DNA from: Ignavibacterium sp.
GTDB taxonomy: Bacteria > Bacteroidota > Ignavibacteria > Ignavibacteriales > Ignavibacteriaceae
Assembly: GCA_020354005.1 (NCBI GenBank)
Contig: CP070637.1
Span: forward strand, 2,304,199 to 2,350,246
Reading direction: 5' to 3'
DNA length: 46,048 nt
Part shown: positions 3,399 through 37,610 of the stretch, piece after piece
Layout of the letters: each line of letters opens with the position of its first letter
Position numbering within the stretch: position 1 is the first letter of the stretch
Translations under genes and position numbers: made by a program
Notes under the pieces: generated by a model
The model's input: only the letters and a program-made list of their open reading frames with translations
Databases searched by the model: none
What the model was told of the DNA's origin: nothing

Positions 3399-4541
3399 TT
3401 ATAACTTCTTATAAACCATTTTACCGATCTTAGCGGTTATACAAAGAGGCAGCCTTCGCCATATTTTATTTTTTAGCCCACTGACAATTTCTACATCAAG
3501 AGGTCCTTTTTCCAACTGTGGGGGATTAGGATAGTAGTAATGATATAATCTCATTACTTTCGATCCCCACTTCTTTTTGTATGCTGCTAATCCTGAGTGG
3601 TCTCTGGCCACTTCTCCTAAATTATATTCTCTATAACCATCTTTTTGTGCATCTACAATTGCCTGCATATGCAAAAGATCATTCGATCGATATTCAAAAT
3701 GATGCCGGCTGCTACCGTTAAATGCATATGTAACAGTTCCGTTATAATAAAAAAGCACATTACCTGCAATCGTCGCTTTATTCTTCCCCTCTTCCAACTC
3801 GGCTAACAAAAGATTCATGAATCCTTTTGGTCTTAAATACTTCCATAGATCGATAAAGAATTTAAATGAGCGGGCAGGAGATGTATGAAATCTCATTGTG
3901 TCCAAGTAAAGATTATACCATTGTCGCAAATCGTCTTCTGTTTCAGCAAGTCTATACCTTACACCGCTACGCAATGCTTTATTAACTGCCCTTTTTATTG
4001 CAGAATGATTTCGTGAACTTCCATATCTAATCTCATCCGGATATGGTGGAATTTCCTTGATGTATATTTCACGCCAGAAATGCTTATAGAGGAATCTGGC
4101 ATATTTGTCTAAATCAGTTGCGTAAGATTTAATCTGTAATAATTTATCTGGGTTTTCGGAAACCAAATTAATTACTCCATTTATCAGTTTAGCAGCTACA
4201 TATTCATCAGTTGCTAATGGTCCACCGATTGGTGTTCTTGGTAATGATGAAAGACGCCTTGAACCCGAAACTCCTCCAAGTCCAAATGGAATTCCTTTCG
4301 TTTCTTGAAGTAGCAATATTCCCAAAATTTCATTTTCATCGTTGGTACAAATAAGTTTTAATACCTCCTGTCCCGATTCTTTTTCTATCACTTTCAGCCA
4401 CAAAGGATGGTGATAAATTGTGCTTTCAGGATGAGTAGTTAAGAAATCTTCCCATTCAAATTCCAAATCTGTACCGACTAAATATACAGTTAGATTTCTC
4501 TCTGATTTTTCTGCTTGTATATTTTGTAATAGTGTTGTCAT
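3399..4541 (-). CDS. FemAB-like (GNAT-fold) transferase, copy 1
   Basis: This 380-residue protein has the bipartite GNAT layout of the FemAB/FmhB family. An N-terminal YHHPLWLKVIEKESG stretch lies near residues 44-58. The C-terminal acyltransferase half holds NDLLHMQAIVDAQ and YNLGEVARDHSGLAAYKKKW. Classical FemAB proteins transfer amino acids from aminoacyl-tRNA to peptidoglycan precursors. Relatives in exopolysaccharide loci, including exosortase-linked ones, have unknown acceptors, and an aminoacyl or acyl modification of the surface glycan is the likely role. The start codon overlaps the stop of the broken deacetylase (ATGA), which suggests coupled translation. It is a close paralogue of the protein at 6204-7343; by eye more than half the residues match across most of the length. 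Confidence 0.85.
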   Translation of the reverse strand: MTTLLQNIQAEKSERNLTVYLVGTDLEFEWEDFLTTHPESTIYHHPLWLKVIEKESGQEVLKLICTNDENEILGILLLQETKGIPFGLGGVSGSRRLSSLPRTPIGGPLATDEYVAAKLINGVINLVSENPDKLLQIKSYATDLDKYARFLYKHFWREIYIKEIPPYPDEIRYGSSRNHSAIKRAVNKALRSGVRYRLAETEDDLRQWYNLYLDTMRFHTSPARSFKFFIDLWKYLRPKGFMNLLLAELEEGKNKATIAGNVLFYYNGTVTYAFNGSSRHHFEYRSNDLLHMQAIVDAQKDGYREYNLGEVARDHSGLAAYKKKWGSKVMRLYHYYYPNPPQLEKGPLDVEIVSGLKNKIWRRLPLCITAKIGKMVYKKL

Positions 4542-5057: not shown

Positions 5058-6152
5058 TTAATGCATGGAGTTGTTAAATAGTATTTCAGATATTCTTTCC
5101 GCTGATCTTCCATCCCACAGTTCTGGTATTGTACCAATTTTTTCATAACCATTAATTATTTGTTTAACTGCTTTTTCAGCTTTATTAAAATCTTCACCAA
5201 CAAGCTGATTAGTACCTTCTTCAATTGAAGAGGGACGTTCAGTTGTAGTTCTTAAAGTAATACATTGCACACCAAGATAAGTACTCTCCTCTTGTATCCC
5301 CCCACTGTCTGTCAGTATCAATGTCGATTCATTTAGCATTGCAATAAAATCAATATACCCAACTGGATCAGTTAAGATAACATTGCCTTCTAACTTTTTA
5401 TCTAATCCAAAATTTTCTAAATTTTTTCTGGTTCTGGGGTGTATAGGAAAGATAACTTTTTGTTCTGATGATATTGAATTCAGAAACTTAGCCATTTCTG
5501 AAAGTCTATATTCCGAATCTACATTACTTGGTCGATGCATTGTAACTATTATAAACTCCTTTCGTTTAATATCATATTTTTCAAGAATATCTGACGATTT
5601 TGTAAGTGGTAAAATGCTAATTAGGCTATCTATCATACAATTACCTACAAAAAATATTTTACTCTCCTCAACTCCTTCGTTTCTTAAATTAATCAATCCA
5701 CTTTTTTCAGTTACAAATAAATAATCTGAAATTGTATCAGTAAGAATTCTATTAATCTCCTCAGGCATATAACGATCAAAACTTCTTAATCCTGCTTCAA
5801 CATGTGCAACCTGTATATGAAGTTTTTGGGCAGTAAGACTGCACGCTATTGTTGAATTAACATCACCCACAACAATTATCAGGTCGGGCTTCTCTTTAAG
5901 TAACACCTCCTCAAATTTGATCATTATTTTTCCTGTTTGTTCTGCATGTGATCCTCCTCCAATACCTAAGTAGTAATCAGGAGCAGGTAATCCTAGCTGA
6001 TTAAAAAATACTTCGGACATGTTTGTATCATAATGCTGCCCGGTATGACAAATTATATGTGTTACACGTTTATTGTATTTTTTAAATGCTCTGTGGATCG
6101 GCGCAACCTTCATAAAATTTGGTCTTGCCCCAACGACTGATAATATTTTCAT
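5058..6152 (-). CDS. wecB: UDP-N-acetylglucosamine 2-epimerase (non-hydrolysing)
   Basis: This 364-residue protein is the usual family length and begins MKILSVVGARPNFMKVAPI, a hallmark of the family. Further family motifs are CHTGQHYD (H40), VVGDVNST (D97), HVEAGLRSFDRYMPEEINR (E119 and E131), and SGGIQEESTYLG with ERPSSIEEGTNQLVG near the C-terminus. The enzyme interconverts UDP-GlcNAc and UDP-ManNAc in the cytoplasm. A WbpI-type role on UDP-2,3-diacetamido-glucuronic acid is also possible, because the oxidoreductase, aminotransferase and acetyltransferase for that sugar are encoded at 17628-22108. An AGGAT ribosome site precedes the ATG. It separates the two FemAB genes, which suggests it was inserted in, or kept within, a duplicated module. 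Sequence alone does not decide WecB against WbpI. Confidence 0.93.
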   Translation of the reverse strand: MKILSVVGARPNFMKVAPIHRAFKKYNKRVTHIICHTGQHYDTNMSEVFFNQLGLPAPDYYLGIGGGSHAEQTGKIMIKFEEVLLKEKPDLIIVVGDVNSTIACSLTAQKLHIQVAHVEAGLRSFDRYMPEEINRILTDTISDYLFVTEKSGLINLRNEGVEESKIFFVGNCMIDSLISILPLTKSSDILEKYDIKRKEFIIVTMHRPSNVDSEYRLSEMAKFLNSISSEQKVIFPIHPRTRKNLENFGLDKKLEGNVILTDPVGYIDFIAMLNESTLILTDSGGIQEESTYLGVQCITLRTTTERPSSIEEGTNQLVGEDFNKAEKAVKQIINGYEKIGTIPELWDGRSAERISEILFNNSMH

Positions 6153-6203: not shown

Positions 6204-7343
6204 TTATAGGTTCTTATATACTATTTGGCCAATTTTTGCTGTTATTCTAAGTGGTAACATTTGCCAAATTTTTGCCTTGATGCTGCCAACTGTACCCGAA
6301 TCTAGATCCCCTTCTAGGAACTGAGCAGGATTAGGAAAGTAATAATGATACATACTAATTCTTTCTGTATCCCATTTTTTCTTATAAGTAGCTAACCCTA
6401 TATTGTCTTTGGAGACTTCTCCGAAGTTATAATATTTGAAACTATTCTTCTGAGCATCAAGTATGGCATACCAATGTAATAAATCGTTTGGGCGTAACTC
6501 AATATGTTTGCGGATACGACTACTTCCACTGAAAGCGTGAGTAACAGTTTTATTGTAAAAGAATAATACACTTCCAGCTATGACTGTGTTTTTATCACTT
6601 TCTTCCAACTCAGCTAACACCAACTCCATCAGTCCTTCTGGTCTTAATATTTCACATAAATTTTGGAAAAAACTATATGATCGTGCTGGCGTAGCATGAA
6701 GTCTCATCGTATCTAAATAGAGGTGATACCATTTTTTTAAGTCATCCTCCGTTTGTGCAGTTCTATGAATAACATTGTTTTGCTCTGCTTTATTTACTGC
6801 CCATTTTATTTTAGCATGATTTTTTGATTTGCCATATCGTATTTCATCAGGAAAATCAGGTATTTCCTTGATATAAACCTCACGCCAAAAGTATTTAAAA
6901 AGAGTACCAACTCCATTATTAATATTGGGATCGAAGGATTTTATCTGCAATAAATAATCAGGTTCGTTTGTAACAATATCAGTTGCTTTTTTAATGAGCA
7001 GATTTGTTGCTTTCACATTCGAAACTAACGGACCACCAACGGGGGTTCTTGGAAGAGATGCAAGCCGTCTTGTCCCTGGAACACCACCAAGTCCAAAAGG
7101 AAATCCCTTAGTATTCTGCAAGGGAAACAATCCGTGTATATTATCATTTTCATCAGAGCAGATTAGTCTTAGTACTTTTTGTCCTGTTTCTTTCTCAATT
7201 ATTTTTAACCACAGTGGATGATGATAAATAGTTGCTTGAGAATTATTTGAGATAAATTCAATCCATTTTTCATCAATGTCAGCATTTGCTTCTTTAACCG
7301 TTAATGATTGCACATTTGAAATATTTTTAATTTTTGTACCCAA
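6204..7343 (-). CDS. FemAB-like (GNAT-fold) transferase, copy 2
   Basis: This 379-residue FemAB/GNAT-fold protein parallels the one at 3399-4541 from end to end. Both share YHHPLWLK.IEKE.GQ, a glycine-rich FGLGGV.G.RRL.SLPRTP segment near residues 85-110, a central YNLYLDTMR-like region (here YHLYLDTMRLH), and a C-terminal ITAKIG..VYK ending. The acceptor is unknown; family knowledge suggests transfer of an aminoacyl or acyl group to a cell-surface precursor. It lies 40 bases after the ATP-grasp gene and 51 bases before the epimerase, so all are probably in one transcript. The two copies have diverged mostly near the N-terminus and in the linker around residues 120-140, so they may use different substrates. 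Confidence 0.85.
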   Translation of the reverse strand: MGTKIKNISNVQSLTVKEANADIDEKWIEFISNNSQATIYHHPLWLKIIEKETGQKVLRLICSDENDNIHGLFPLQNTKGFPFGLGGVPGTRRLASLPRTPVGGPLVSNVKATNLLIKKATDIVTNEPDYLLQIKSFDPNINNGVGTLFKYFWREVYIKEIPDFPDEIRYGKSKNHAKIKWAVNKAEQNNVIHRTAQTEDDLKKWYHLYLDTMRLHATPARSYSFFQNLCEILRPEGLMELVLAELEESDKNTVIAGSVLFFYNKTVTHAFSGSSRIRKHIELRPNDLLHWYAILDAQKNSFKYYNFGEVSKDNIGLATYKKKWDTERISMYHYYFPNPAQFLEGDLDSGTVGSIKAKIWQMLPLRITAKIGQIVYKNL

Positions 7344-7383: not shown

Positions 7384-8580
7384 TTAGTCTGCTTTTCCAA
7401 ATAATGATTTAATGCTATATTTTATCCCTGCTCTCAACTCCATAATAAATGGAATCGGATCTTTAAATGAGATAACCGCATAGAACTTTTTCCCCGTCAT
7501 GGATTTTAGCCACTCTCTAATAGTAAGCTTCCCATTCTTCCAATAGTTAAAAGCTGATTGAAGGTCTGTTCTTAAATGAATCCATTTTACGTTCTTAAAT
7601 GTCTGAGTTCGTGTATCAGGTAAAGGAAGCCCGAGGCAATCACAATACATTGTATAAATTAAATCAACACCACAAGCTTCTGCGAGTGCTGAGCGACCGG
7701 TCGGTCTACCAATGTTAGGTTCAATTATATAGTACTTGCCTGTTTGAATATCTTTTTTAATCTCCACATAACCAAGACCCACATAATTTACTTTTTTAAA
7801 CAAATCTGTAGTAACATTTAAAACCGTATCATCTATTACATCAACACCTAAACTTGTATTTCCCGTGACGATGGGCCACTGACGCAATTTTTTAGCAGTA
7901 AAGTTTACAAGTGGTTCTGAATTCTGGTTATAATAACAATTACAGGAGTAAAGGCTTGTATCATCTCCCTCAATCCATTCCTGCAGCATCAATGTATCAC
8001 TCCAATCACATATTCGGTCATACATATTTAGAAATTCATTCTTATTTAAAACTTTAAATGCTTTTAATCTCGTATTTTCTTCCCATCTAGGACTTCTCAT
8101 ATGGGGTTTAAGAACACAAGGGAAATCAAGTTTATCGGCAGCTTCCTCGGCATCTTTTCTGTTTTTAAGCAAGAAAAATTTTGCCACAGGTAATTCCTTG
8201 TCTCTAGCAAATTCATAAAAGCGAGGTTTATTCATTAATAATTCAACCGTTTCGTTCGATGGAAGAGAAATATGATAGTATGGTTCAAGTTTCACTCTGT
8301 TTTGTGACACAAGTAATACACTTGCATCCTGACAAGGATATAGAACAGCTTTCTGATCTAATTCTTTCCCGAGTTTGATAAGGTTTTCAATTAGTTCATC
8401 CGACATCTTACCACTCGGGATTACTTTTTCACAAGTATTTGTTTTAGCACAATAATGATCGGGATTTTCTGCTAAACCAATTACAGGCACTCCATTATCT
8501 GCTAAAATTCTAGCTGTTTGCAAGCCTGTCAGATAATCCATATTAATTAAAACTGCATAAGGTTTGCGATTCTTAATCAT
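7384..8580 (-). CDS. ATP-grasp carboxylate-amine ligase-like protein
   Basis: This 398-residue protein has a three-part ATP-grasp layout. A Rossmann-like start (YAVLINMDYLTGLQTARIL) is followed by an ATP-binding lysine in FPCVLKPH (K158) and the hinge LQEWIEGDD at about 199-207. The metal-binding IIEPNIGRPTGRSALAE at about 285-301 contributes E287 and N289. Enzymes of this group join a carboxylate to an amine or other nucleophile through an acylphosphate. Similar predicted ATP-grasp genes are common in exopolysaccharide loci with unknown substrates. Together with the FemAB transferases it suggests peptide- or amide-type decoration of the glycan. A phosphonate or phosphonolactate carboxylate from the neighbouring mutase/dehydrogenase pair is a speculative substrate. 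Confidence 0.82.
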   Translation of the reverse strand: MIKNRKPYAVLINMDYLTGLQTARILADNGVPVIGLAENPDHYCAKTNTCEKVIPSGKMSDELIENLIKLGKELDQKAVLYPCQDASVLLVSQNRVKLEPYYHISLPSNETVELLMNKPRFYEFARDKELPVAKFFLLKNRKDAEEAADKLDFPCVLKPHMRSPRWEENTRLKAFKVLNKNEFLNMYDRICDWSDTLMLQEWIEGDDTSLYSCNCYYNQNSEPLVNFTAKKLRQWPIVTGNTSLGVDVIDDTVLNVTTDLFKKVNYVGLGYVEIKKDIQTGKYYIIEPNIGRPTGRSALAEACGVDLIYTMYCDCLGLPLPDTRTQTFKNVKWIHLRTDLQSAFNYWKNGKLTIREWLKSMTGKKFYAVISFKDPIPFIMELRAGIKYSIKSLFGKAD

Positions 8581-8626: not shown

Positions 8627-9331
8627 TTAAGTGATCTGCTTATTCCTATTCAAAAAATCCTTTGATTTATTGAATACTTCATTAAAAACTATATCGATTG
8701 GTTGTGTTGCGTCAACAATAATAAAATTCTTTAATCTGTTTCCAACTTTCATAAAATTATCAGTTCTCATTTTTAGGTATTCAATATTTGCTTCTCCTTT
8801 TCTCTCAAATAGAACTTCAGGCGGGGCATGCAAAAAAAATACCAAATTAGGTTTACTATACATGTTATTAAGAAGCCACCAAAGTATTTTAGAAGTTAAC
8901 CTTTGATCTTTTGCTTTTTCCCCCAAATGATTAGTGGACGAATCAAATAGATAGTGTCTGTCGTACAAAACAACATAACCCCTTAATTGAAATACCCAGG
9001 AGATAAACAGTCTGTACCAGGCTTCTGCCATTCTATTTGCTAATCTTGCAAAAGCTCCAAGTTTACCTCTTTTATCCAAAGTTCGGTCTTCATCAATATC
9101 GTGTAAAGAAAGATCTTTCAGCTTCACGTTTTTAAGGATTTTATTTCTCTTTTTATACTTTAACAACTTCAAATAAAAAATTAACCTAGATGTCGGTAGC
9201 GCATAATTACTTGATTCAATGTTTAATCCCATGTATAAATATTTCATTTTTGCAGGTGGAGAATCAAGAAGCATTTTTGCGATTGTAGTTTTCCCGGATC
9301 CATCTGCACCAACTAACGCAATAGTTGCCAT
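8627..9331 (-). CDS. Thymidylate-kinase-like P-loop kinase
   Basis: This 234-residue protein opens with IALVGADGSGKTTIAK, a Walker A motif at about residues 8-15. LYDRHYLFD at about 122-130 corresponds to the DR motif of thymidylate-kinase folds. NLVFFLHAPPEVLFERKGE resembles the lid-proximal region of that superfamily. It is probably not the housekeeping dTMP kinase: it sits in a polysaccharide locus, has a long basic insertion at about residues 55-90, and shares a TAATG stop-start overlap with the HprK-like gene before it. A role as a small-molecule or sugar kinase is inferred. TMK-like genes of this kind recur in exopolysaccharide clusters and have no established substrate. Confidence 0.78.
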   Translation of the reverse strand: MATIALVGADGSGKTTIAKMLLDSPPAKMKYLYMGLNIESSNYALPTSRLIFYLKLLKYKKRNKILKNVKLKDLSLHDIDEDRTLDKRGKLGAFARLANRMAEAWYRLFISWVFQLRGYVVLYDRHYLFDSSTNHLGEKAKDQRLTSKILWWLLNNMYSKPNLVFFLHAPPEVLFERKGEANIEYLKMRTDNFMKVGNRLKNFIIVDATQPIDIVFNEVFNKSKDFLNRNKQIT

Positions 9332-10500
9332 TACTTTCTAATTTCTCCTTGTAGATGGATACTTTCACTTTCAACATCAGAAATTTTCATTTGTTCTACG
9401 TTAAATATTGTTTTCATTTTATTAAATAATTTATCAAATGATACAGGATAAGGATGCTTTACAATAAATGCGTTTTTATCCGCAAGAACTTTCTTCATTA
9501 AAGAATACTGAAGGCTATTAATATTCTCTAAGAACTCATTTCGCAAATTGGGAAACGCGAACTTGAAAACGTTATAATATTTCACGAAATAATCTCTTTC
9601 AAATTCTTGCGAACTGATCATCCTATCAATAATCTCCCTTGGTATAGCTGGTTCAACTATTATTTCATCAGAATCGTGACTCATGGCTAAAACAATACGA
9701 TCCAAACTAGTTTGAGATAAAATTTTATTTGAATTGAATATTTTAGATGGCAAGATTTTTATATTTAATTGTGTTTTTAACAGGGGCAATGCTTTATTAA
9801 GTAAACCAATATGAAGTCGTTTATTTATTCCATCAAGCATGTGAATAGATTTAAATAGCAATCCGGTTTTAAAACTTATTTTAGGTATTAAATCCGGAAT
9901 CTCTTTAAACTGCCACTCCCAAATACAAATCGGAATTTTAAGCGCGAGTATTTTTTCTCCATTTTCTGAAATAAGGGAAATCTCATCACTTACAAATTTT
10001 GCTCCGTTCTTAATAAAAGAGAAAAGACTTTCCGTTTTCCCTCCTTTAGCCCACCCCATCACTAATGCACCAAGTCCATTGTATTCAAAAGAAGTTGAGT
10101 GAAGTGGGAGAAAGTTTTTACTCAGAAGGATAAAATTCAAAATATGATTTAGTAGTGGAATATCCGGAGAACCAGTCTCACAAACAATATTAACTTGCTT
10201 TAATCCAATATCTTCAAAGGGAATTTTAATTTTCACATCATCTTTACCATTTGATAAGATAAAGAATCCACTCTCATTATATCCAGCAGTATTCAATCCT
10301 ATTAGCGTTAAATTAGTCAGTTCCAATTCATTCACATAGGAAATTACTATGTCAGGCTCATAGGTGAGATTTTCCGGAATTATGTCAAACTTATTCCTGA
10401 CAATTTTAACATCACCCTCACTCGGATTGATCAATCTTAATCCAACAATCCCATGGATGTCAAAGTCAATTGAGTGCTTAATAGCCATATTACTGTCCAT
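9331..10500 (-). CDS. HPr kinase-like P-loop protein of polysaccharide loci
   Basis: The 389 residues contain one clear motif, a Walker A of HPr-kinase type, GWAKGGKTES at about residues 149-158. It follows LPLHSTSFEYNGLGALVM, as in HprK-related proteins of exosortase and other exopolysaccharide loci. KFVSDEISLI soon after is similar to the metal-binding acidic region following the P-loop in HprK. The first 130 residues show no motif I recognise. True HprK phosphorylates a serine of the PTS protein HPr; here the target is unknown and could be a small molecule. Its stop overlaps the start of the TMK-like gene by one base. Start choice is open between Met1 and Met5, as neither has a visible ribosome site. 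Confidence 0.72.
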   Translation of the reverse strand: MDSNMAIKHSIDFDIHGIVGLRLINPSEGDVKIVRNKFDIIPENLTYEPDIVISYVNELELTNLTLIGLNTAGYNESGFFILSNGKDDVKIKIPFEDIGLKQVNIVCETGSPDIPLLNHILNFILLSKNFLPLHSTSFEYNGLGALVMGWAKGGKTESLFSFIKNGAKFVSDEISLISENGEKILALKIPICIWEWQFKEIPDLIPKISFKTGLLFKSIHMLDGINKRLHIGLLNKALPLLKTQLNIKILPSKIFNSNKILSQTSLDRIVLAMSHDSDEIIVEPAIPREIIDRMISSQEFERDYFVKYYNVFKFAFPNLRNEFLENINSLQYSLMKKVLADKNAFIVKHPYPVSFDKLFNKMKTIFNVEQMKISDVESESIHLQGEIRK

Positions 10501-10641: not shown

Positions 10642-11523
10642 TTATTTTTCAGATGGAAGATATATTTTCTCAGCTTCTTTTAGTTCAGCAGCGTTTTGCA
10701 AACGAAAAACTTCTTTTACCGATACGATTTCACTTTCTACAGATTTAATAGAAGATTCTTTATAAATCTGAGATGCGGTCTGCTGCATAGCTTTAACACT
10801 TGTCCGCAGTAAGTGATTTGCCCATATTACCAAGCTAACTCCGCATTTTTGAAACTCCTCGACAGGAGTATTGTAATACATTGTTGGAACGATAACAACC
10901 GGACAGGTATCTTTCCATTGAGCCATAAAATCAAAAATATCATCTGCACTGGATTTTTTACTATGAACAAGCAGTGCATCTGCACCGGCATTACTATATG
11001 CTTCAGCTCGTTTTAATGCTTCATCCAATCCCCAACCAGCAATGAAAGCTTCGATTCTTGCAACAACACAAAAGTCAGGATCTTCTTGAGTATCTTTTGC
11101 AGCTTTAATCTTTCCGGCAAACTCATCAATCTTTGCAAGTTCCTGAGCCTCACCATCAATAAAAGAGTTCGTCTTTGGAAAGAGTTTGTCCTCAATACAC
11201 ATCGCGGCAATCTTTCTCTGCTCAAGTTTTTTTACTAGGCGCCGTACATTGTTAAAGTTACCGTATCCAGTATCTGCATCTAACATAAGAGGGATGGTTG
11301 TGGTATCACTCATAAATTCAATTACATCCAATACCTGTGTCCAGCTTGCTTCATTGTTGTCTCTAACACCCATTGCTGCAGAAATTGCCAAACCACTTCC
11401 CCAAATTCCTTTGAAGCCGGTTTCTTCAACTATTTTAGCACTTAAACCATTATGGGCTTCCAAAATGAATTCTACTTGATCGGATTCAAGCATTTGCTTG
11501 AATTGTGTTGATTTAGCTAACAT
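10642..11523 (-). CDS. pepM: Phosphoenolpyruvate mutase (C-P bond forming)
   Basis: This enzyme turns phosphoenolpyruvate into phosphonopyruvate, the entry step to nearly all phosphonates. The 293-residue chain carries the diagnostic [10 protein letters not shown] at 111-120, whose Lys-Thr-Asn belongs to the gating loop that separates PEP mutase from isocitrate lyase and methylisocitrate lyase. [12 protein letters not shown] at 81-92 is the metal site, [12 protein letters not shown] lies at 52-63, and VARIEAF at 154-160. From memory it matches the mussel enzyme closely, even in the C-terminal SVKEVFRLQ segment. It is a stand-alone domain with no fused nucleotidyltransferase. A strong AAGGAG precedes the ATG. 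The gene follows the hydroxyacid dehydrogenase by 45 bases. No phosphonopyruvate decarboxylase or aminoethylphosphonate transaminase is encoded in the window. Confidence 0.95.
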
Positions 11524-11545
11524 TTTTTTCTCCTTCTACAATTTC
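11516..11545 (-). promoter_or_regulatory. Strong ribosome binding site of pepM
   Basis: On the minus strand the sequence AGAAGGAGAAAAA lies directly before the ATG at 11523, with AAGGAG spaced about eight bases from the start. This is one of the strongest Shine-Dalgarno matches in the locus and fixes the start of the mutase. Confidence 0.7.
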
Positions 11546-11568
11546 AAATTACTGAGTTGTTAAAAATA

Positions 11569-12537
11569 CTACTTACTAACCGTTGATGAAATTGATTCTT
11601 TTTGATTTGATTTTGCTTCAAACTGTTCAACGGATTCCAAAACCCTGTCACCAATTTCGCGTTGAGAGTCGAGAGTCTGAGCACCAACGTGTGGTGTTAA
11701 AACAACATTGGGTAACGATGCAAATGGAGAAATCTTTCCTTCGCCTTCATTTTCATGAACATCTAGCCCTGCGCCTCTTATCCGGTCACCTTTTGTAAGT
11801 TCTTCAAGAAGAGCGTCCTCATTCACAACTCCACCACGAGCAAGACTTATTATATACGAGCCGGTTTTCATAAGTTTGAGTTCTTCTTTGCCAATCATAT
11901 TTCTTGTGGTGTCATCCAATGGTGTATGAACTGAAACGTAGTCAGCTTTAATTAACACTTCTTCAAATGTTGTTAACTTAATACCTTTAGATTTCAGGAA
12001 CTCTTCATTCTCTGAGGTATATTCATTCTCTGCCACACAGCCTAATACAGTCATACCCCACGCCGCACCCATCTCACCAACTAATGAACCAATATTTCCA
12101 GCACCAACAATTCCCAACACCTTGCCTCTTATTAGATAACTTTTTAGCTCACTCTTAACCCAATGACCTTGCCTCCATTCTTTGTCTGCATAAAGCAAAT
12201 TTCTGGAAAGGGCAAGCATGAATGCAAAGCTAAGTTCAGCTACCGCTTTTGCACCCGGTTCGGGAATTCGAACTAACTCTATTCCCCTCTGATTGGAATA
12301 TTCCACATCAAGATTATCTAAACCGGAACCAGCACGAATTAAGTATTTAAGATTTGGTGCTGCTCCCATTACCTTTGCGGAAATTTGTACGCCACTTCTA
12401 AAAATCAATAAGTCTCTGTCTTTTACCAACGTTATCAGTTTATCTTCCGGTGCATTAAATGCACAGATAACATCGTGATTTTCATTTAGTTTTTCTATTG
12501 CGTGTTTTGAAATAGAACTTGCGATTATAATATTCAT
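11569..12537 (-). CDS. D-2-hydroxyacid dehydrogenase (SerA-like)
   Basis: This 322-residue protein is an NAD(P)-dependent D-isomer-specific 2-hydroxyacid dehydrogenase. VLGIVGAGNIGSLVGEMG at about 140-157 is the dinucleotide-binding GxGxxG. The catalytic set is R234 (SLARGGVVNEDAL), E262 (LDVHENE) and H283 (TPHVGAQ). It is the size of the short 3-phosphoglycerate dehydrogenases without a regulatory ACT domain. Housekeeping SerA is possible. However, it stands directly upstream of PEP mutase with a 45-base gap, so a function on phosphonopyruvate is attractive: reduction to phosphonolactate would pull the unfavourable mutase equilibrium forward. That is inference from context. An AGGAA sits about ten bases before the ATG. 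Confidence 0.88.
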   Translation of the reverse strand: MNIIIASSISKHAIEKLNENHDVICAFNAPEDKLITLVKDRDLLIFRSGVQISAKVMGAAPNLKYLIRAGSGLDNLDVEYSNQRGIELVRIPEPGAKAVAELSFAFMLALSRNLLYADKEWRQGHWVKSELKSYLIRGKVLGIVGAGNIGSLVGEMGAAWGMTVLGCVAENEYTSENEEFLKSKGIKLTTFEEVLIKADYVSVHTPLDDTTRNMIGKEELKLMKTGSYIISLARGGVVNEDALLEELTKGDRIRGAGLDVHENEGEGKISPFASLPNVVLTPHVGAQTLDSQREIGDRVLESVEQFEAKSNQKESISSTVSK

Positions 12538-12693: not shown

Positions 12694-13731
12694 CTATCCA
12701 AAATGCCGATAAGTTAACGAACCAAAAACTTTTAATAATGGAAGAGGAACACAGTTAAATATCTTATTATGTAAACCTGTGGTTTTCGTTTGAATTTCAA
12801 TAAAATCATCTTTCCTGAGATCATATCTATAAATATTCAAAACTTCTTCCTTTGTGCCCCATCCAAGCTTAAATTTCCTTAATCCTTCGTTATCAGGTTC
12901 TGTTCTTCCGAAACAAAAATCTTCAAAACCATTATTTGCACAATACTTTATTGCTTCCCACATTACAAGATTGTTTGCCCTAAGATGCTGGTATTCCATA
13001 TCCGAAGCACCGAACTTGTAAACTGCCTTTTTTCCATGCAGCAGATAGACAGCTCCGGCTATACTCAAATCTTTATAGCATCCAATGGCAATGAATCCCT
13101 TCTCAGAAGATAGTACATACTTAAATAGATTTTCAAAAAATGATTTTGGCTGCGGTGGAAGCCCATGTTTTTTTCGCGTGATGCAATTCATCTTATAAAA
13201 TTCTTCAAGAGCCTCTCTTGAATTTGATATCTCAGTACTCACTCCCTCACGAATGGATTTCTTTATATTTCTCTTTGTATTACTGCTAAGATTTCTGTGA
13301 AGCTCATCTTCACCTATAGTTAAATTAAGTGAGTGATTATAATCGAAAGTTGATGGTTGAACTCCATTAAAAAATTTATTCCCGCCTCTTATCTCCACAT
13401 ACTTTAAATTTCTTTTTTTACAGAAATCCAAAATTTCTTTTTGAAGGTTGCTGAAATTTATATCATCCGAAATTAGCGGCGGACAGTAATCGGTGAAGGG
13501 TAATGCCACTGCTCTATTGCCTGTTAACCTACTATTAACAACCATCACCGGTACGGCTGCATTAAGAGAATTGTGCGATTGGATGATAAAATAGTAGGGA
13601 TGATAACCATATGTATCGGCAACAAGCTGCGACCAGTAGGAAGTGTGGAAGAAGGAGTAATCAGAAAAATTTAAAATCTTCTCATCCCAACCAGATGAAT
13701 CAACTGGATTTATAATTTCTAAATTGTTCAT
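12694..13731 (-). CDS. FemAB-like (GNAT-fold) transferase, copy 3
   Basis: This 345-residue protein is a more distant FemAB/GNAT member than the pair downstream. It shows FFHTSYWSQLVADTYGYHPYY near residues 28-48, FTDYCPPL near 79-86, and NLVMWEAIKYCANNGFEDF with FGRTEPDNEGLRKFKLGWG in the C-terminal half. These are features of the FemAB-related proteins in exopolysaccharide loci. A role attaching an amino acid or acyl group to a lipid-linked glycan is inferred. It is the first gene after the terminator that follows wzc, and 156 bases separate it from the dehydrogenase, so a separate promoter on one or both sides is plausible. Confidence 0.83.
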   Translation of the reverse strand: MNNLEIINPVDSSGWDEKILNFSDYSFFHTSYWSQLVADTYGYHPYYFIIQSHNSLNAAVPVMVVNSRLTGNRAVALPFTDYCPPLISDDINFSNLQKEILDFCKKRNLKYVEIRGGNKFFNGVQPSTFDYNHSLNLTIGEDELHRNLSSNTKRNIKKSIREGVSTEISNSREALEEFYKMNCITRKKHGLPPQPKSFFENLFKYVLSSEKGFIAIGCYKDLSIAGAVYLLHGKKAVYKFGASDMEYQHLRANNLVMWEAIKYCANNGFEDFCFGRTEPDNEGLRKFKLGWGTKEEVLNIYRYDLRKDDFIEIQTKTTGLHNKIFNCVPLPLLKVFGSLTYRHFG

Positions 13732-13856: not shown

Positions 13857-16409
13857 TTATGTTGATGCCTCAACAGTGTCAGTTTTTTTCTTTGAATCCT
13901 TTCCATTAGTTTCGTTCAAGTTATAACCATAGCCATAGCCGTAACGATATCTGTAATAGTAAGAGTCTCTTATTTCAGCAGCATTAACTACTACTCCCTG
14001 AATTTTTATTTTAGCATGTTGCATTTCCTGAATTCCACCCACCACTGCTTCTTTAAAGGAATGTCCGGGACGCACAACAAGTATTGCATCTTGAATTGAC
14101 TGACCTAAAACTAAAGTATCTACAACCCTTGTAACCGGAGGAGTATCTATTATTATGGAATCGTACATTGAAGTATCAAACGATTTGAATAGCATTTTCA
14201 TTCGTTCCGAATTCAATAAGTGACTGGAATCTTCTCTTCTACCGCCTGCCGGTAGAATATCAATATTTTTTAACAATTTCGTATAAATTGTTGGAGAAAC
14301 TTCTTTTTCAATAAACTCAATTAATCCGGGAGACTTTTTAGGAATGCCAAACATTTTTGAGAGTTCAGCTTTCCTGAGATCACAATCAACTATAAGTACT
14401 CTTTTGTTTTCTTGTGCTATTGAAATTGCAAGATTTGCTACCACACTTGTTTTGCCGGTATTCTCTTCGCAACTTGTTACCATAAATATTTTCTCACTGC
14501 CATTCATCTGGAAAAGAAGTTTGGTTTTTAGAAGACGATACGTTTCTCTAAATCCTTCCCCTTCATCCATCAGGGTGACAAATTTTTGCTTTCCGTTTTC
14601 TGTGTTATTTATGTCCTCTTTAATCTCTCGGGAATAAGTAGGTATTATAGCAAATATCGGTAGGTTGAATTCATTTTCTAACTCATCAAGATTTACAAGT
14701 TTACTATCTCTTAATTCAAGGAGAAATATGCCGACTAATCCAAAGAATCCTCCAAGAACAACAGCAACCATCAAATTAAACATTTTACGAGGAGATATAG
14801 GAATTAAAGGTTCATGAGCTTCATCAACAACAGCAATATCCTGCAGCTTTGAAAGCTCAGCAATCCTCATTTCTTCTCTTTTATCCAGTAACAACGTGCT
14901 GATTTTCTCGTAAACGTTTTTCCGTCTCATTAGCTGTGCTAACCTGTTTTCTTTTGCAGGAAGCATTTCGAGTTTTACTTCGTACTTCGACATAAGATTA
15001 TTAATCTTAAGTAGTTTCTTCTCGAGTGACGCTATGATAATTTGATATGCTGTTAAAGTATTTTCATTGTAAGTGGAAAGCTTTTGCTTAGCTAAAAATA
15101 TTGCATCATCCACTGCGGTAACGTCCGGATGGTTTTCAGTTCGTTTCTGAAGTAACTCAAGACGCTGTAGTTCCAAATCCGTAAGCTGCTTTAGAAGTGC
15201 TGAAAACGGAGAACTCCTGTCCATGTTACCTTGTGGTGCAAGATGACTTTGGTCAATATATCCGGTGATAGCCATTTCGTCCTTCATCTCAGCTACTTTA
15301 TTTTTATAATCTTCCAATAGAAGGTCTGTATTAACTTTCTCAGTCTCCAGATTTGTCATAAATTTAACCAAGTCGCGGGAACTTTGGTCGATTGTTGTTA
15401 TATGTCCACTTGCTTTAAATCTGCTAAGATTTTCTTCTGCATCCTTCAGTTTCTGCTTCATCTCATTTAGCTGCTCATCAACAAACTTAAACGAATATCT
15501 TATTGTTTCCTTTTGCTGATTTATTCTTGAAGCACGGAATTTATCTATAACAGTGTTTGCTATAAGTGCAGCCACAAATGCCGAAGAGGATTTAACTGCT
15601 ACCTTGAAAACATTGGTCTTTCCCCTTTTTTCTACTTTAATCTTCTTTTTAAGTCCGTCAACTGCCTTATAAAAGTTTTTGATGTCGAAGTGGACAATAC
15701 TTCCGATTGGTGCATCCCAGTATATCTCTAAATTAGCAATGGGTAAATCAAAGTTTCCCACACCCTTCAATAAATCCATATCAGCATATGGATCATCTAC
15801 AGCAGCTATCTGGTCCAGTTCTTCTTCTACTTTGTTATCAGATACTTGCAGCAATGTATTAGTGGTTGCATCATAAATTTCAAATTTATGAGAGCCGGTT
15901 TTTTTAATATAAAAGTACCCGCTTTTCTTTCTCTTTTTAAGTTCAACTTTTTTGAATTCAGGAAGGTCAAATTGAAACTCATAGTTGCGAATAAATGATG
16001 GATCAGAGAAGTATGTAATCGCCGAACCAATCTCGATCGTTTCTCCATCCGATGCGATCATACTATTTATAATAATATTCAATTTTAATTCATCAATTAC
16101 ATTCCCCAGAACATTCCAGGTCTTTACCAATTCCATTTCTGTTTCCAGTTCATCTAAGGTCTGCAAATCAATAATGCCTGAAAAGTCCCCTCTATTTTTA
16201 TCCTTTGGTGCAACTTCTTTTTTGAGCAAACCAACTGCTTGATACACTGGTGTGGCTAAATAATTATAAGTCACAGCCAACATTACAAAAACTATAACTG
16301 TAAATATCAATACATACCGGCGCCGGAATACTATTTGTAAAATTTCAATTAAAGATTTCTCTTTTTTATGTCCATTGTTACTTGGATGATTTGAAAATAA
16401 AGCGTTCAT
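13857..16409 (-). CDS. wzc: Wzc-like polysaccharide co-polymerase with BY-kinase
   Basis: This 850-residue inner-membrane protein has a first transmembrane helix at about 32-50 after a cytoplasmic Wzz start (KSLIEILQIVFRRRYVLIFT). A long periplasmic coiled-coil region runs from about 300 to 520, and a second helix lies at about 540-563. The cytoplasmic tyrosine kinase has Walker A TSCEENTGKTSVVANLA (lysine about 653), Walker A' VLIVDCDLRKAEL and Walker B SIIIDTPPV. The C-terminus has a tyrosine cluster, SYYYRYRYGYGYGYN at about 816-830, for autophosphorylation. It controls chain length and works with the Wza-like outer-membrane channel encoded just upstream. The Walker A has ENTGKT where many BY-kinases have GEGKT, which is a minor variation. 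It probably shares an operon with the export gene. Confidence 0.94.
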   Translation of the reverse strand: MNALFSNHPSNNGHKKEKSLIEILQIVFRRRYVLIFTVIVFVMLAVTYNYLATPVYQAVGLLKKEVAPKDKNRGDFSGIIDLQTLDELETEMELVKTWNVLGNVIDELKLNIIINSMIASDGETIEIGSAITYFSDPSFIRNYEFQFDLPEFKKVELKKRKKSGYFYIKKTGSHKFEIYDATTNTLLQVSDNKVEEELDQIAAVDDPYADMDLLKGVGNFDLPIANLEIYWDAPIGSIVHFDIKNFYKAVDGLKKKIKVEKRGKTNVFKVAVKSSSAFVAALIANTVIDKFRASRINQQKETIRYSFKFVDEQLNEMKQKLKDAEENLSRFKASGHITTIDQSSRDLVKFMTNLETEKVNTDLLLEDYKNKVAEMKDEMAITGYIDQSHLAPQGNMDRSSPFSALLKQLTDLELQRLELLQKRTENHPDVTAVDDAIFLAKQKLSTYNENTLTAYQIIIASLEKKLLKINNLMSKYEVKLEMLPAKENRLAQLMRRKNVYEKISTLLLDKREEMRIAELSKLQDIAVVDEAHEPLIPISPRKMFNLMVAVVLGGFFGLVGIFLLELRDSKLVNLDELENEFNLPIFAIIPTYSREIKEDINNTENGKQKFVTLMDEGEGFRETYRLLKTKLLFQMNGSEKIFMVTSCEENTGKTSVVANLAISIAQENKRVLIVDCDLRKAELSKMFGIPKKSPGLIEFIEKEVSPTIYTKLLKNIDILPAGGRREDSSHLLNSERMKMLFKSFDTSMYDSIIIDTPPVTRVVDTLVLGQSIQDAILVVRPGHSFKEAVVGGIQEMQHAKIKIQGVVVNAAEIRDSYYYRYRYGYGYGYNLNETNGKDSKKKTDTVEAST

Positions 16410-16437: not shown

Positions 16438-17043
16438 TTACTTAATAATTAATGCTACTATTGTTACTATGAGTGCAATACCTGAAATAAGAACAGTTAT
16501 TCCCCTGTCTGCCCACCATGTTTTAGGAATAAATATCTGGTCACCAGAACGTAAACCAAAATCTGTCACCGAATCACCTTCTCTTATAATTGTGTCAACA
16601 TCAAGTTGTAATTCTTGATTATCCCGTATTATTGAAATCGCCTCCAAATCGGCATTGTTGGTAGTCCCACCTGCTAATGCTAAAATACCAGTAAATTTTT
16701 CAATGTCAGTTACATAATAGAAACCGGGATTTTGTACTTCACCCAATATATTAATCCTAAACAATGCATAAATAGTCATTTTGGGATTCTTATATAAAGA
16801 ATCATAACCAGCTTTGATTTGCTCTTTAATATCTATAAAATCTTTTGAACTAGCATCTATAATGTTTATGAATGGCATGTTAATTACACCATCCGGCTGT
16901 ATATAATAATCTCCTGATATTTCATCAGTAATATCAAGAAAGCTAATTCTAACTCCATCGCCAGGATTTAGTTCCTGAGCCAGAGAATCAATGTTAAACC
17001 CTAGATATAGAGAGACTACCAAAACAAAAACTAAATATTTCAT
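16438..17043 (-). CDS. wza: Wza/BexD-like polysaccharide export protein
   Basis: This is a secreted export protein of about 201 residues. I choose the ATG at 17043: GAGGAC sits six bases before it, and it gives a clean signal peptide (MKYLVFVLVVSLYLGF, then SLAQELNPGD). An ATG ten codons upstream would put charged residues in front of the signal. The Poly_export domain begins LNPGDGVRISFLD and has the typical YYIQPDGVINMPFI. One SLBB-type domain (INILGEVQNPGFYYV) follows, then SGDQIFIPK and a C-terminal hydrophobic helix (GITVLISGIALIVTIVALII). That terminal helix and the small size are more like short export proteins than full Wza. It forms or lines the outer-membrane exit for the polymer and pairs with Wzc, 28 bases downstream. 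Confidence 0.9.
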   Translation of the reverse strand: MKYLVFVLVVSLYLGFNIDSLAQELNPGDGVRISFLDITDEISGDYYIQPDGVINMPFINIIDASSKDFIDIKEQIKAGYDSLYKNPKMTIYALFRINILGEVQNPGFYYVTDIEKFTGILALAGGTTNNADLEAISIIRDNQELQLDVDTIIREGDSVTDFGLRSGDQIFIPKTWWADRGITVLISGIALIVTIVALIIK

Positions 17044-17627
17044 CAAGTCCTCTGGAGTTAATAAATAATTCAATTAATACTAAAAGTAAAGTTAAAAATG
17101 TTTACTATAAAAGTGTCCAATAATATTTAACTTACTGCCCAAAATGATTTGAAGAACTCAACAACCAAAATTTATCGAAGCCTAAAATCAACATTTATGC
17201 CACGAAAATAAATCTTTATCAGTCGAGATAGTAATTTGCAAAATGTCATATTTATTAAAATGAGAATTTTGACCCATTTTGTATCACCATCAGATGCTCT
17301 AAAAATCTATAAGTCCTTTAACTATAACCAATTTCTCAATTCAAAAAATAATGTACGAGAAAAAAATTACATGCACAATCTATTTTACGAGTAAGAATAA
17401 TACCGAGTTCCATCAATCAATTTTTTAATCAACCCGAGCATAAAAATACTAATGGTTGGGAAAACAATTAAAAAATGAATTTTGCAACAAAAATGTGCCT
17501 TATTTAAAAATATTGCATTATTTTAGCATAGTTGTTGTTATGTTTCGAGAAAATATTGGGGTAAAAATCTTATAGTACAATTAGTTAATAATAAAGTATT
17601 CACTTATATGCACGGAGGACAAATTTA
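17044..17627 (+). promoter_or_regulatory. Divergent intergenic region, about 580 bases, no gene
   Basis: The stretch separates the minus-strand export/biosynthesis genes from the plus-strand aminotransferase, and must hold promoters for both directions. It is very AT-rich and no open frame of use is visible. A strong GGAGGA ribosome site precedes the ATG at 17628 and a GAGGAC precedes the ATG at 17043. I could not assign promoter boxes with confidence. Its length is much greater than other gaps here, so it may hold regulator binding sites. Confidence 0.5.
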
Positions 17628-18752
17628 ATGCAAGTACCATTTTTAGATCTAAAAGTACAGTATCAGTCCATCAAAACAGACGTGGACGCAGCAATTCAAA
17701 AAGTAATTGATAATACAGCCTTTATTCTAGGCGAATCTGTTGCCAACTTTGAGCAAAACTTTGCCAAAGCACACAATGCAAAGTATTGTATAGGAGTAAG
17801 CTCAGGAACTGACGGAAACCACCTTGCAACCTGGTCTTTGGGTATTAAGCCCGGAGATGAAGTCATTATACCTGCTAACACCTTTATCGCAACTGCGTGG
17901 GGCGCTACACTATGTGGAGCCACACCGATTATGGTTGATTGTCATCCGGATAACTACAACCTCGACCCAGAAAAAGTAGAGGCTGCAATCACACCAAAGA
18001 CAAAAGCAATTGTTGCGGTTCATCTATATGGTCAACCTGCTGATATGGATAAGCTAAGGGAAATTGCAAATCAGCATAATTTATTCCTTATTGAAGATGC
18101 CGCCCAGGCTCATCTGGCAGAATATAATGGTGAAAAAGTAGGGGGACTATCAACCGCTGCCTCTTTCAGTTTTTATCCGGGTAAAAACCTTGGCGCATAT
18201 GGCGAAGCAGGAGCTGTGTTAACGAATGATGATCAACTTGCAAATAATTTGAAAATGCTACGTGAACATGGTCAGTCAGAAAAGTATTGCCACCAATCAT
18301 TTGGTCACAACTACAGGATGGAAGGTATTCAAGGTGCTGTACTGGGTGTTAAGTTGAAATATCTTGATAAATGGACAGAAGGTAGAAGAAGAGTTGCCGC
18401 TAAATATAAGGAATTATTGAGTGACATAGACACAATTAGATTACCCATAGAAATGCCTTATGCAAAGCACGTTTATCACTTGTTCGTTATTCAGGTTAAC
18501 GGCAGCAATGGAAAAGATACGAGAGATAAACTGCAAAAATTCTTGGGTGAGAATGGAGTGGCTACCGGACTCCATTATCCAATTCCATTACATCAGCAAA
18601 ATTGTTTCAGTTATCTTGGTTACAAAGAAGGTGATTTTCCTGTAACAGAGCAACTAGCAACAACCGGGTTATCACTACCGATGTTTCCAGAACTGAGTGA
18701 CGACAAAATCCAATATGTTTCCGAGAAGCTTAAAGAGTTTTTCGTAAACTAA
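17628..18752 (+). CDS. DegT/DnrJ/EryC1 sugar aminotransferase (WbpE-like)
   Basis: This PLP enzyme aminates a keto group on a nucleotide sugar using glutamate. The 374-residue chain begins VPFLDLKVQYQSIK, typical of the family. It has GVSSGTDG at 56-63 for phosphate binding, IEDAAQAH at 155-162 (D157 contacts the PLP ring nitrogen) and the Schiff-base lysine K186 in FYPGKNLGAYGEAG. With the oxidoreductase at 20583 and acetyltransferase at 21623 it forms the WbpB/WbpE/WbpD-type set. That set oxidises C3 of UDP-GlcNAcA, aminates it and acetylates it to give UDP-2,3-diacetamido-glucuronic acid. Related enzymes for other amino sugars cannot be excluded. A GGAGGA precedes the start and a hairpin follows the stop, so it may be transcribed alone. 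Confidence 0.93.
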   Translation: MQVPFLDLKVQYQSIKTDVDAAIQKVIDNTAFILGESVANFEQNFAKAHNAKYCIGVSSGTDGNHLATWSLGIKPGDEVIIPANTFIATAWGATLCGATPIMVDCHPDNYNLDPEKVEAAITPKTKAIVAVHLYGQPADMDKLREIANQHNLFLIEDAAQAHLAEYNGEKVGGLSTAASFSFYPGKNLGAYGEAGAVLTNDDQLANNLKMLREHGQSEKYCHQSFGHNYRMEGIQGAVLGVKLKYLDKWTEGRRRVAAKYKELLSDIDTIRLPIEMPYAKHVYHLFVIQVNGSNGKDTRDKLQKFLGENGVATGLHYPIPLHQQNCFSYLGYKEGDFPVTEQLATTGLSLPMFPELSDDKIQYVSEKLKEFFVN

Positions 18753-18798: not shown

Positions 18799-19079
18799 GT
18801 CATTTCTATTGCTTTTGATTATTTGAAATCCTATTTTTTAATGAGGATGCTTCATCACGTTTAGAAATATTCAATCGACATCTCTATTTGTATAATATTT
18901 GGTGTGAGAGGGTTGTCTCATTATTCAATCCTAGAGGGCAGAGGCATCTCATATTGGAACCTTATCTAACATATTTATTGCAAAATCTGTCCAAATATTG
19001 ATGTTTTTAATGTTTCAATTGATGGCATAGTATTAGAGTTTACTTGAACTCAAATTTTGAGGGCAAATCCAAACACTTT
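18799..19079. other. Intergenic spacer, no gene seen
   Basis: About 280 AT-rich bases between the hairpin and the sugar phosphotransferase hold no credible open frame. A promoter for the downstream genes is expected because of the preceding hairpin, but I cannot place its boxes. Confidence 0.4.
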
Positions 19080-20519
19080 ATGAAAAAAATTCCACTGTAT
19101 AAGTATCTTTTAGGCATCACTGATGTTTTTGTATTGTTCGCCTCTTTTTTGGCTGCGATGTACTTACTCAGAAGTGATTCCTCACTTAATTTAATCGAGT
19201 TCGCAAATGTTGCTCAGGATTTAATTCTTGGTTTCTTCATTGTATCCATTGTATTTATTGTAATCTTCTATTACAACGGGTTATATAGATTAAATATTGT
19301 GTTAACCAGGGCATCTCATCTTTCACACATACTTAAGGCACTATATTATGGTGCTCTTAATATTGTATTAGTATCCCTACTCATTAACTCTTCAGGCATT
19401 GTCGATTCACGTTTACTAATATTTTTAGTCTTCATAATAGCTTACCCGACTTTATATCTGGTTCGTGCAGAGGCGATGAGAAGACTATATTTACTTTTCA
19501 GTAAAACCGGATTCAGAAGAAATATTTTAATACTCGGTGATGGCAAATCAGGAAAAATGTTAGCAACAAAGTTGATGTTTGAGAATCCAATTGGATTAGA
19601 AATAGTAGGTTTTGTTGATGAAGATAAACCATTAGGGGAGGAAGTTGTTATTGGTGCAAAGGTAGTTGGGCGATTCACAGATATTGAGAATTTAATCCAA
19701 AAGTATAGTGTAGATGAATTGATAATTGCCATCGATAGCGAAACACACGATAAGTTTTTAGATATACTCGATGCCTGCAAAAAATTAGATGTAAATGTTC
19801 GTATAACTTCCGAATTATTCGATGTTGTCGGCGAGAAAGTATCTACAGAAAAATATGCTGATATTCCTGTAATTGACGTTTCCTCACACTATAATAATGC
19901 TCTTACTTTGGGTGTAAAAAGAGCATTCGATATTGCTATTTCAATCTTCGCTTTAATAGTTCTCTCACCTGTAATGATTGCAATAATAGCTGCAATCAAA
20001 TTGTCATCTTCCGGCTCCGTTCTCTTCAAACAGACTCGAATCGGTAAAGGTGGCAAGGAATTTGAATTCTATAAATTCAGATCGATGAAGGTGTTAACTG
20101 GCAGCGAAGACGAAGATCGAATGAAGCAAATGCTAGAGTTCATGAAAAACGATAGCGCTGATGCGGGTACAAAAATTATTAATGAAGATAGGATTACCTG
20201 GATCGGCGGATTCATTCGCAAAACTTCCCTTGATGAGTTACCCCAGTTACTCAACGTTCTAAAGGGGGAAATGAGCTTAGTTGGGCCTAGACCGTGTCTG
20301 CCCTATGAATACGAGAATTACGACAGGTGGCAAAAACGCCGCGTAGAAGTAATTCCTGGTTGTACTGGCGTTTGGCAGGTTTGGGGAAGAAGCTCAGTAT
20401 CCTTTAAAGAGAGCGTAGTACTCGATCTATATTATATAAACAATATGTCGCCATGGTTTGATTTCCAGATAATGCTGCAAACCTTACCGGCAATAATAAC
20501 CGGTAGAGGCGCCAAGTAG
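19080..20519 (+). CDS. Undecaprenyl-phosphate sugar phosphotransferase (WbaP/WcaJ type)
   Basis: This membrane enzyme moves a sugar-1-phosphate from a nucleotide sugar onto undecaprenyl phosphate, the first committed step of repeat-unit assembly. From the ATG at 19080 it has 479 residues. A hydrophobic N-terminal third with several membrane helices precedes a Rossmann-like CoA-binding-type domain (NILILGDGKSGKMLA). The catalytic domain starts at about 279 (KRAFDIAISIFALIVLSP) and has FEFYKFRSMK, SLDELPQLLNVLKGEMSLVG, PRPCLP and PGCTGVWQVWGRS. A TTG twelve codons upstream would add MNSNFEGKSKHF, but neither start has a good ribosome site; I prefer the ATG. It lies among diacetamido-sugar genes, so that nucleotide sugar or UDP-GlcNAc may be its substrate. 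Confidence 0.92.
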   Translation: MKKIPLYKYLLGITDVFVLFASFLAAMYLLRSDSSLNLIEFANVAQDLILGFFIVSIVFIVIFYYNGLYRLNIVLTRASHLSHILKALYYGALNIVLVSLLINSSGIVDSRLLIFLVFIIAYPTLYLVRAEAMRRLYLLFSKTGFRRNILILGDGKSGKMLATKLMFENPIGLEIVGFVDEDKPLGEEVVIGAKVVGRFTDIENLIQKYSVDELIIAIDSETHDKFLDILDACKKLDVNVRITSELFDVVGEKVSTEKYADIPVIDVSSHYNNALTLGVKRAFDIAISIFALIVLSPVMIAIIAAIKLSSSGSVLFKQTRIGKGGKEFEFYKFRSMKVLTGSEDEDRMKQMLEFMKNDSADAGTKIINEDRITWIGGFIRKTSLDELPQLLNVLKGEMSLVGPRPCLPYEYENYDRWQKRRVEVIPGCTGVWQVWGRSSVSFKESVVLDLYYINNMSPWFDFQIMLQTLPAIITGRGAK

Positions 20520-29248: not shown

Positions 29249-29255
29249 AAACATA

Positions 29256-32913: not shown

Positions 32914-32915
32914 TA

Positions 32916-34750: not shown

Positions 34751-34772
34751 TTTTCATTACTAAAACGTGCTC

Positions 34773-34790
34773 TAAATAGTAAACTATTTA
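34773..34790. terminator. AT-rich 7-bp hairpin between convergent glycosyltransferases
   Basis: TAAATAG and CTATTTA pair around TAAA, overlapping the stop codon of the minus-strand glycosyltransferase and lying 22 bases after the plus-strand stop. It is short and AT-only except for one pair, so it is a weak terminator candidate. Confidence 0.3.
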
Positions 34791-37586: not shown

Positions 37587-37610
37587 CATTTAGTTAAGGT
37601 TTAACAGTAA

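Follow-up and report, generated by a model that had tools for sequence, protein, structure and literature searches.

Which enzyme draws phosphonopyruvate away from a PEP mutase when the usual decarboxylase is missing from its neighbourhood? Phosphonate glycans are known, surface phosphonates form a large organic phosphorus pool, and CMP activation is the usual means of phosphonate attachment. To our knowledge, the established routes to glycan phosphonates pass through phosphonoacetaldehyde and mostly rely on that activation. We addressed the question in a stretch of 46,048 nucleotides from Ignavibacterium sp. (the window, 34.4% GC), where ORF coordinates place a dehydrogenase gene (DH) upstream of pepM on the same strand, 45 bp away:

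10642..11523, - strand: pepM, PEP mutase of 293 aa (TIGR02320, 1m1b alignment, motifs), free-standing, with no nucleotidyltransferase fusion
11569..12537, - strand: DH, D-2-hydroxyacid dehydrogenase of 322 aa (PF02826/PF00389), the proposed phosphonopyruvate reductase (yielding phosphonolactate)

A sequence-only reading of this DNA had called the mutase unmistakable and had described a complete D-2-hydroxyacid dehydrogenase 45 bases upstream of it; both descriptions were borne out, the second by the coordinates, both Pfam domains and the catalytic Arg/Glu/His. PepM passed the NCBIfam equivalog TIGR02320 (404.4 bits, cut-off 319.55), aligned end to end with Mytilus PEP mutase 1m1b (289 residues, E 7.7e-133), and kept the EDK(X)5NS motif and the nucleophilic Asp of GVRD ([13 protein letters not shown], [10 protein letters not shown]). 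It is the only PEP mutase in the genome, the second match being a 24%-identical isocitrate-lyase-like protein. The PepM equilibrium favours PEP more than 500-fold, and the enzymes known to pull it are a decarboxylase, an aminotransferase, a 2-hydroxyacid dehydrogenase and a homocitrate-synthase-like enzyme (PMC12871164); by this list, the window DH fits the third class. The canonical surface phosphonate pathway, Ppm(PepM)-Ppd-AEPT-PntC (PMC6697681), likewise begins with PepM and supplies a phosphonate for a surface polymer or lipid, but the window lacks Ppd, the AEP transaminase and the nucleotidyltransferase, fused or free, and has DH and an ATP-grasp enzyme in their place.

The absence of Ppd and of an AEP transaminase, already remarked for the window, extended to the source genome (one contig of 2.80 Mb, completeness estimate 80%), in which neither was found above cut-off. 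The best match to the Ppd model scored 20.5 bits (cut-off 312.5), and the best matches to the PhnW and AepZ models scored 189 and 141 bits (cut-offs 361 and 401). Judged by its ORF, the 20.5-bit match is the beta subunit of a 2-oxoacid:ferredoxin oxidoreductase and not Ppd, and the PhnW-like match is an ordinary alanine-glyoxylate-type aminotransferase and not an AEP transaminase.

The dehydrogenase contains PF02826 and PF00389, has no ACT domain and retains the catalytic residues R234, E264 and H283. The general models nearest to it are PGDH and glyoxylate reductase, and among solved structures it comes closest to 3-phosphoglycerate dehydrogenases (1wwk, E 3.5e-60). It failed the SerA equivalog TIGR01327 (257 bits, cut-off 454), matching only the first 310 of its 525 positions. 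The genome encodes a separate SerA of 396 residues, whose extended C-terminus reads as an ACT domain and which shares 30% identity with the window DH; the genome's other 2-hydroxyacid dehydrogenases are GhrB-like (beside alanine dehydrogenase) and PdxB-like. Dehydrogenases found with the same gene set (the cassette, below) in other genomes were 47–77% identical to the window DH, while the next best dehydrogenase of any genome reached at most 38%. A maximum-likelihood tree grouped all 21 cassette DHs tested, split by a 100/100 branch from 11 other DHs, among them dehydrogenases of the same genomes. Residues F46, G49, V50, S71, R90, I91, P94, H261, G265 and G267 are fixed in this clade and different in the other DHs compared, and cluster at the substrate side; we speculate that R90 might assist phosphonate binding. 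The enzyme thus resembles SerA in its fold, its catalytic Arg/Glu/His and a substrate of similar shape, but differs in lacking the ACT domain, in forming a separate 100/100 clade with its own active-site residues, and in always occurring with pepM. On these sequence grounds we reject it as the organism's SerA. The sequence-only reading had named a sole SerA as one case that would count against it, and the separate ACT-domain SerA and the separate clade show that this is not so. The mutase gave no comparable division: the PepM tree, with four label changes and weak support, did not show DH-type PepM as its own clade; PepM sequence alone does not distinguish the two types.

The pairing of DH with pepM recurred widely. 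Searching species-representative genomes for relatives of PepM yielded 29 loci from 27 genomes, and 20 of these loci, all in other genomes, had a close relative of the window DH immediately preceding pepM on the same strand, at gaps of -8 to 95 bp (in L008 the DH gene is cut by the contig start). The pair spans at least seven phyla: Bacteroidota/Ignavibacteriota, Chloroflexota, Calditrichota, Kiritimatiellota, Planctomycetota, Thermodesulfobacteriota and Acidobacteriota. In one further member, from the Acidimicrobiaceae, DH lay on a different contig from pepM, inside an exopolysaccharide cluster (L076). The relatives are mostly MAGs, so their neighbourhoods depend on assembly, and p-values ignore shared ancestry; one carrier of the cassette (L014) is a named, cultured strain, Candidatus Laterigemmans baculatus JC640. 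Both genes are rare. Broad surveys found pepM at E<=1e-60 in 4 of 395 genomes of the window's phylum, 1 of 400 Chloroflexota and 11 of 395 genomes of the phylum that includes Geobacteraceae, and DH in 1 of 392 Planctomycetota genomes. Among 117 plasmid records with a PepM relative there was no DH above about 40% identity, and no DH relative was found on viral contigs. Judged by gene order and homology, the DH–pepM pairing is no accident.

Where DH was present, the canonical route was not. Not one of the 21 other DH genomes had a Ppd above cut-off, compared to three of the six genomes lacking DH (Fisher p = 0.007, shared ancestry ignored); the co-occurrence count proposed earlier, of the two genes without ppd, thus stands at 20 adjacent loci and 0 of 21 DH genomes with Ppd above cut-off. 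Three DH genomes (G399, G416, G410) contained weak Ppd-like ThDP stretches, split or partial and away from pepM, at 76–137 bits, below cut-off. Queries for ppd, ntc (three queries) and AEPT had no match in the window or in any DH-type locus, and matched the non-DH loci L022, L025, L028, L029, L074 and L075, although not every query did so in each. Two relatives from the same order (G310, G035) have the canonical set, made up of Ppd and two fusion proteins, PepM-nucleotidyltransferase and nucleotidyltransferase-transaminase. Among the 395 genomes of the Geobacteraceae phylum, both carriers of the cassette have DH adjoining pepM, while none of the other nine pepMs has DH; eight of these nine have a nucleotidyltransferase, and seven of those also have Ppd. 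From these sequence comparisons we infer that DH takes the place of Ppd in the cassette genomes (21 of 21 others).

Two pepMs followed neither pattern. A free-standing pepM from Myxococcales (L020, 10001-10867) has neither DH nor Ppd in its locus or genome, and another (L091, genome G1378) has no DH, Ppd or nucleotidyltransferase within 1.5 kb. These may represent further partner types.

A third gene proved as constant as the pair itself:

7384..8580, - strand: ATP-grasp ligase, cassette core (locus conservation, AlphaFold model), a proposed carboxylate (phosphonolactate)-amine ligase

Counting the window, each of the 19 DH-type loci of sufficient length had it near pepM; none of seven non-DH loci did. 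Genome-wide (at least 46% identity), there was one copy per DH-type genome, missing only from G397 and G409, where contigs end too soon. It was also present in G417 and G421, two genomes in which a contig end truncates pepM, and absent from G413, G415, G418, G420, G035 and G310; no Ppd-type genome examined has it. The AlphaFold model (pLDDT 93.4) has a full ATP-grasp fold, with invariant metal/ATP residues K157, E272, E286, N288 and R291. The nearest folds, 2pn1 (Z 27.1), PurK (25.6), PylC (24.5) and the L-amino acid ligase 3vot (23.5), share it over nearly the whole chain, but the cassette enzyme is only 12–18% identical to them, and the range of this fold also takes in carbamoyl-phosphate and purine enzymes. 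That its substrate is the carboxylate of phosphonolactate is our guess. One locus (L005, 4634-6258) has two cassette-type ATP-grasp genes in tandem behind pepM.

The remaining candidate partners in the window are two P-loop proteins and three FemAB-family transferases, one of which lies next to a deacetylase-like gene:

8627..9331, - strand: Tmk-like P-loop kinase, accessory (PF02223; TIGR00041 below cut-off; 12 other DH-type loci)
9331..10500, - strand: HprK-like P-loop protein (GWAKGGKTE), accessory (TIGR00679 E 8e-5, far below cut-off; 8 other DH-type loci)
12694..13731, - strand: FemAB-family transferase 1 (PF02388/PF13480; TIGR03019 below cut-off)
6204..7343, - strand: FemAB-family transferase 2 (PF13480/PF02388)
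3399..4541, - strand: FemAB-family transferase 3 (PF13480/PF02388)
2435..3382, - strand: polysaccharide-deacetylase-like protein (PF01522 E 4.5e-4, just below cut-off)

The sequence-only reading had offered the ATP-grasp enzyme, the kinases and the FemAB proteins together as partners. Of these, the ATP-grasp enzyme is the conserved partner, constant in 19 of 19 loci; the others vary among DH-type loci (Tmk-like in 12, HprK-like in 8 and FemAB in 11). The best Foldseek matches of the Tmk-like kinase are thymidylate kinases (E 1.8e-9). The kinases could act on a phosphonate or on a sugar. The HprK-like protein (9331-10500) and the Tmk-like kinase might form a pair resembling FomA/FomB and acting on the phosphonate, FomB being a fosfomycin-phosphate kinase; HprK-like proteins matched the FomB model NF000361 at E 5e-4 and 4e-5, far below cut-off, and so their kinship with FomB is only a hint. 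Homologues of the deacetylase-like protein adjoin FemAB genes in L015, L018, L023 and L026. Just upstream of a FemAB gene in the window, a 162-aa ORF (4538-5026, - strand) looks like the N-terminal half of the deacetylase-like protein (2435-3382) and ends at an early stop; apparently, it is a decayed duplicate of the deacetylase–FemAB pair.

Around these genes lies an exopolysaccharide cluster:

5058..6152, - strand: WecB-type UDP-GlcNAc 2-epimerase (TIGR00236 348 bits, above cut-off)
13857..16409, - strand: Wzc-like chain-length protein / tyrosine autokinase (TIGR01007 above cut-off)
16438..17073, - strand: polysaccharide export protein, Wza-like (TIGR03027 E 7.8e-17, below cut-off)
17628..18752, + strand: DegT-type sugar aminotransferase (best TIGR03588 272 bits, below cut-off)
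19044..20519, + strand: exopolysaccharide polyprenyl glycosylphosphotransferase, the initiating enzyme (TIGR03025 390.6 bits, above cut-off)
20583..21599, + strand: UDP-sugar 3-dehydrogenase-like oxidoreductase (NF040723 165 bits, below cut-off)
21623..22108, + strand: hexapeptide-repeat acetyltransferase (TIGR03570/TIGR03308 below cut-off)

The surface-glycan setting suggested earlier is supported by this cluster, in which the glycosylphosphotransferase and the Wzc-type kinase score above cut-off. The 3-dehydrogenase, aminotransferase and acetyltransferase genes resemble a 3-amino-sugar pathway. Exopolysaccharide genes recur around the cassette in relatives from several phyla.

We consider it probable that DH, PepM and the ATP-grasp enzyme constitute a conserved phosphonolactate cassette that decorates exopolysaccharide. 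PepM would convert PEP to phosphonopyruvate, an activity shown at the family level. DH would then reduce phosphonopyruvate to phosphonolactate with NAD(P)H, pulling the unfavourable equilibrium in Ppd's stead. The strict pairing, the mutual exclusion with Ppd and the dedicated clade strongly suggest this reduction, and the pulling role that the sequence-only reading assigned to DH is probable, since DH is not SerA and stands where Ppd would in every other cassette genome. The carboxylate survives in phosphonolactate, and the cassette includes an ATP-grasp enzyme but no nucleotidyltransferase; amide ligation to an amine is the simplest reading of the next step. The ATP-grasp enzyme would convert the carboxylate to an acyl phosphate and couple it to an amine. 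The simplest candidate is an amino sugar in the polymer that the neighbouring genes make, and such ligation would replace the CMP activation of the phosphonate used in AEP clusters. Both this ligation and its glycan target are deduced from the gene content. The Tmk-like, HprK-like and FemAB proteins would be lineage-variable accessories, with no step assigned. In its boldest form the proposal is a third way of phosphonylating glycans, in which a dedicated ATP-grasp enzyme makes a phosphonolactate amide with a free dianionic phosphonate, in many phyla and to the exclusion of the CMP-phosphonate route. We offer this form tentatively, and hold it to be possible but doubtful.

Could the dehydrogenase instead have nothing to do with phosphonopyruvate? 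A SerA paralogue for serine biosynthesis that lies beside pepM by chance would account for the nearest structures (1wwk) and for the 257 bits with TIGR01327, but is scarcely credible given a score under the PGDH cut-off (454), a separate ACT-domain SerA, a single clade with fixed residue changes and an adjacency to pepM kept across phyla. D-2-hydroxyacid dehydrogenases are promiscuous, and with PGDH and glyoxylate reductase as the nearest general models DH might provide the glycan with some other 2-hydroxy acid (for instance D-lactate or D-glycerate), independently of PepM, which another enzyme would pull. We think this quite improbable: 20 of the 21 other DH genomes have the gene next to pepM, no sampled genome without pepM contains a member of the DH clade, Ppd is absent from the DH genomes, and no alternative pulling enzyme is conserved. 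The usual AEP/HEP pathway, with a Ppd overlooked in a genome estimated as 80% complete, runs against the finding of Ppd above cut-off in 0 of 21 other cassette genomes; DH-type loci also have no nucleotidyltransferase or AEP transaminase, and the decarboxylase normally adjoins pepM (PMC8931226). That explanation is very unlikely.

A different question is whether phosphonolactate is the end product. In the valinophos/DHPPA pathway, a kinase and a reductase turn phosphonolactate into phosphonolactaldehyde. Phosphonolactate might likewise be only an intermediate here, on the way to 2,3-dihydroxypropylphosphonate or to a small secreted phosphonopeptide made by the ATP-grasp enzyme, with the sugar genes as bystanders. 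Kinases are present, the valinophos ATP-grasp enzyme VlpF joins valine to DHPPA (PMC12723261), and ATP-grasp ligases are common in phosphonopeptide pathways (PMC11867202). However, kinase-like genes were common in DH-type loci but no aldehyde-forming reductase was found among the conserved neighbour families; nor was a conserved exporter or resistance gene seen, and the recurrence of exopolysaccharide genes in several phyla argues against bystanders. We regard an intermediate role as unlikely, and favour phosphonolactate as a glycan substituent.

The branch from phosphonopyruvate to phosphonolactate is established (PMC12871164, PMC11867202), so its earlier description as known but rare was about right. 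It corresponds to the branch that VlpB catalyses on the way to valinophos (Zhang et al. 2022, JACS, as cited in PMC12871164 and PMC11867202), and VlpB has been used as a phosphonopyruvate reductase (PMC11867202); the title of the valinophos paper, as quoted in PMC12871164, includes the words 'broadly conserved in nature'. As far as these citing papers describe it, the valinophos system resembles the cassette as proposed here in combining PepM with a 2-hydroxyacid dehydrogenase that reduces phosphonopyruvate and in having ATP-grasp enzymes in the cluster, and differs in making a small Streptomyces phosphonopeptide, its phosphonolactate going on to DHPPA. The cassette, for its part, shows no aldehyde-forming reductase among its conserved neighbour families, occurs in other phyla within exopolysaccharide loci and has one constant ATP-grasp enzyme. 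Its DH shares with VlpB-type enzymes the linkage to pepM without Ppd. The phosphonoalamide enzymes PnaA/PnaB/PnaC (PMC11867202) are also comparable, with an early phosphonopyruvate branch that avoids Ppd and ATP-grasp ligases acting on a carboxylate-bearing product, but they use transamination rather than reduction and yield soluble tripeptides, not a glycan. Our literature search found no description of the DH–PepM–ATP-grasp triad in glycan loci, although an earlier mention may exist. Thus the phosphonolactate branch is known through VlpB, and the glycan cassette appears to be undescribed.

If the Ppd-free route with its different product is true, surveys of pepM that assume AEP or HEP as products would misread some phosphonate makers in Planctomycetota, Chloroflexota, Bacteroidota and other phyla. 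The route predicts phosphonolactate as the group on the polymer, which would be detectable by 31P NMR, and the triad would serve as a simple genomic marker for such clusters.

Some further genes accompany the cassette. A UPF0489-like protein, with a weak match to a peptide arginase model, is encoded in four planctomycete cassettes and in the Acidimicrobiaceae locus L017:

L015, 8269-9018: UPF0489-like protein
L016, 289-1038: UPF0489-like protein
L017, 906-1658: UPF0489-like protein
L021, 8229-8975: UPF0489-like protein
L026, 8225-8971: UPF0489-like protein

A Cys-rich methyltransferase is found in L015, L017, L021, L023 and L026. The window itself contains a second surface-biosynthesis region (28325-38267), which encodes two group-1 glycosyltransferases along with methyltransferases and several B12/radical-SAM proteins.
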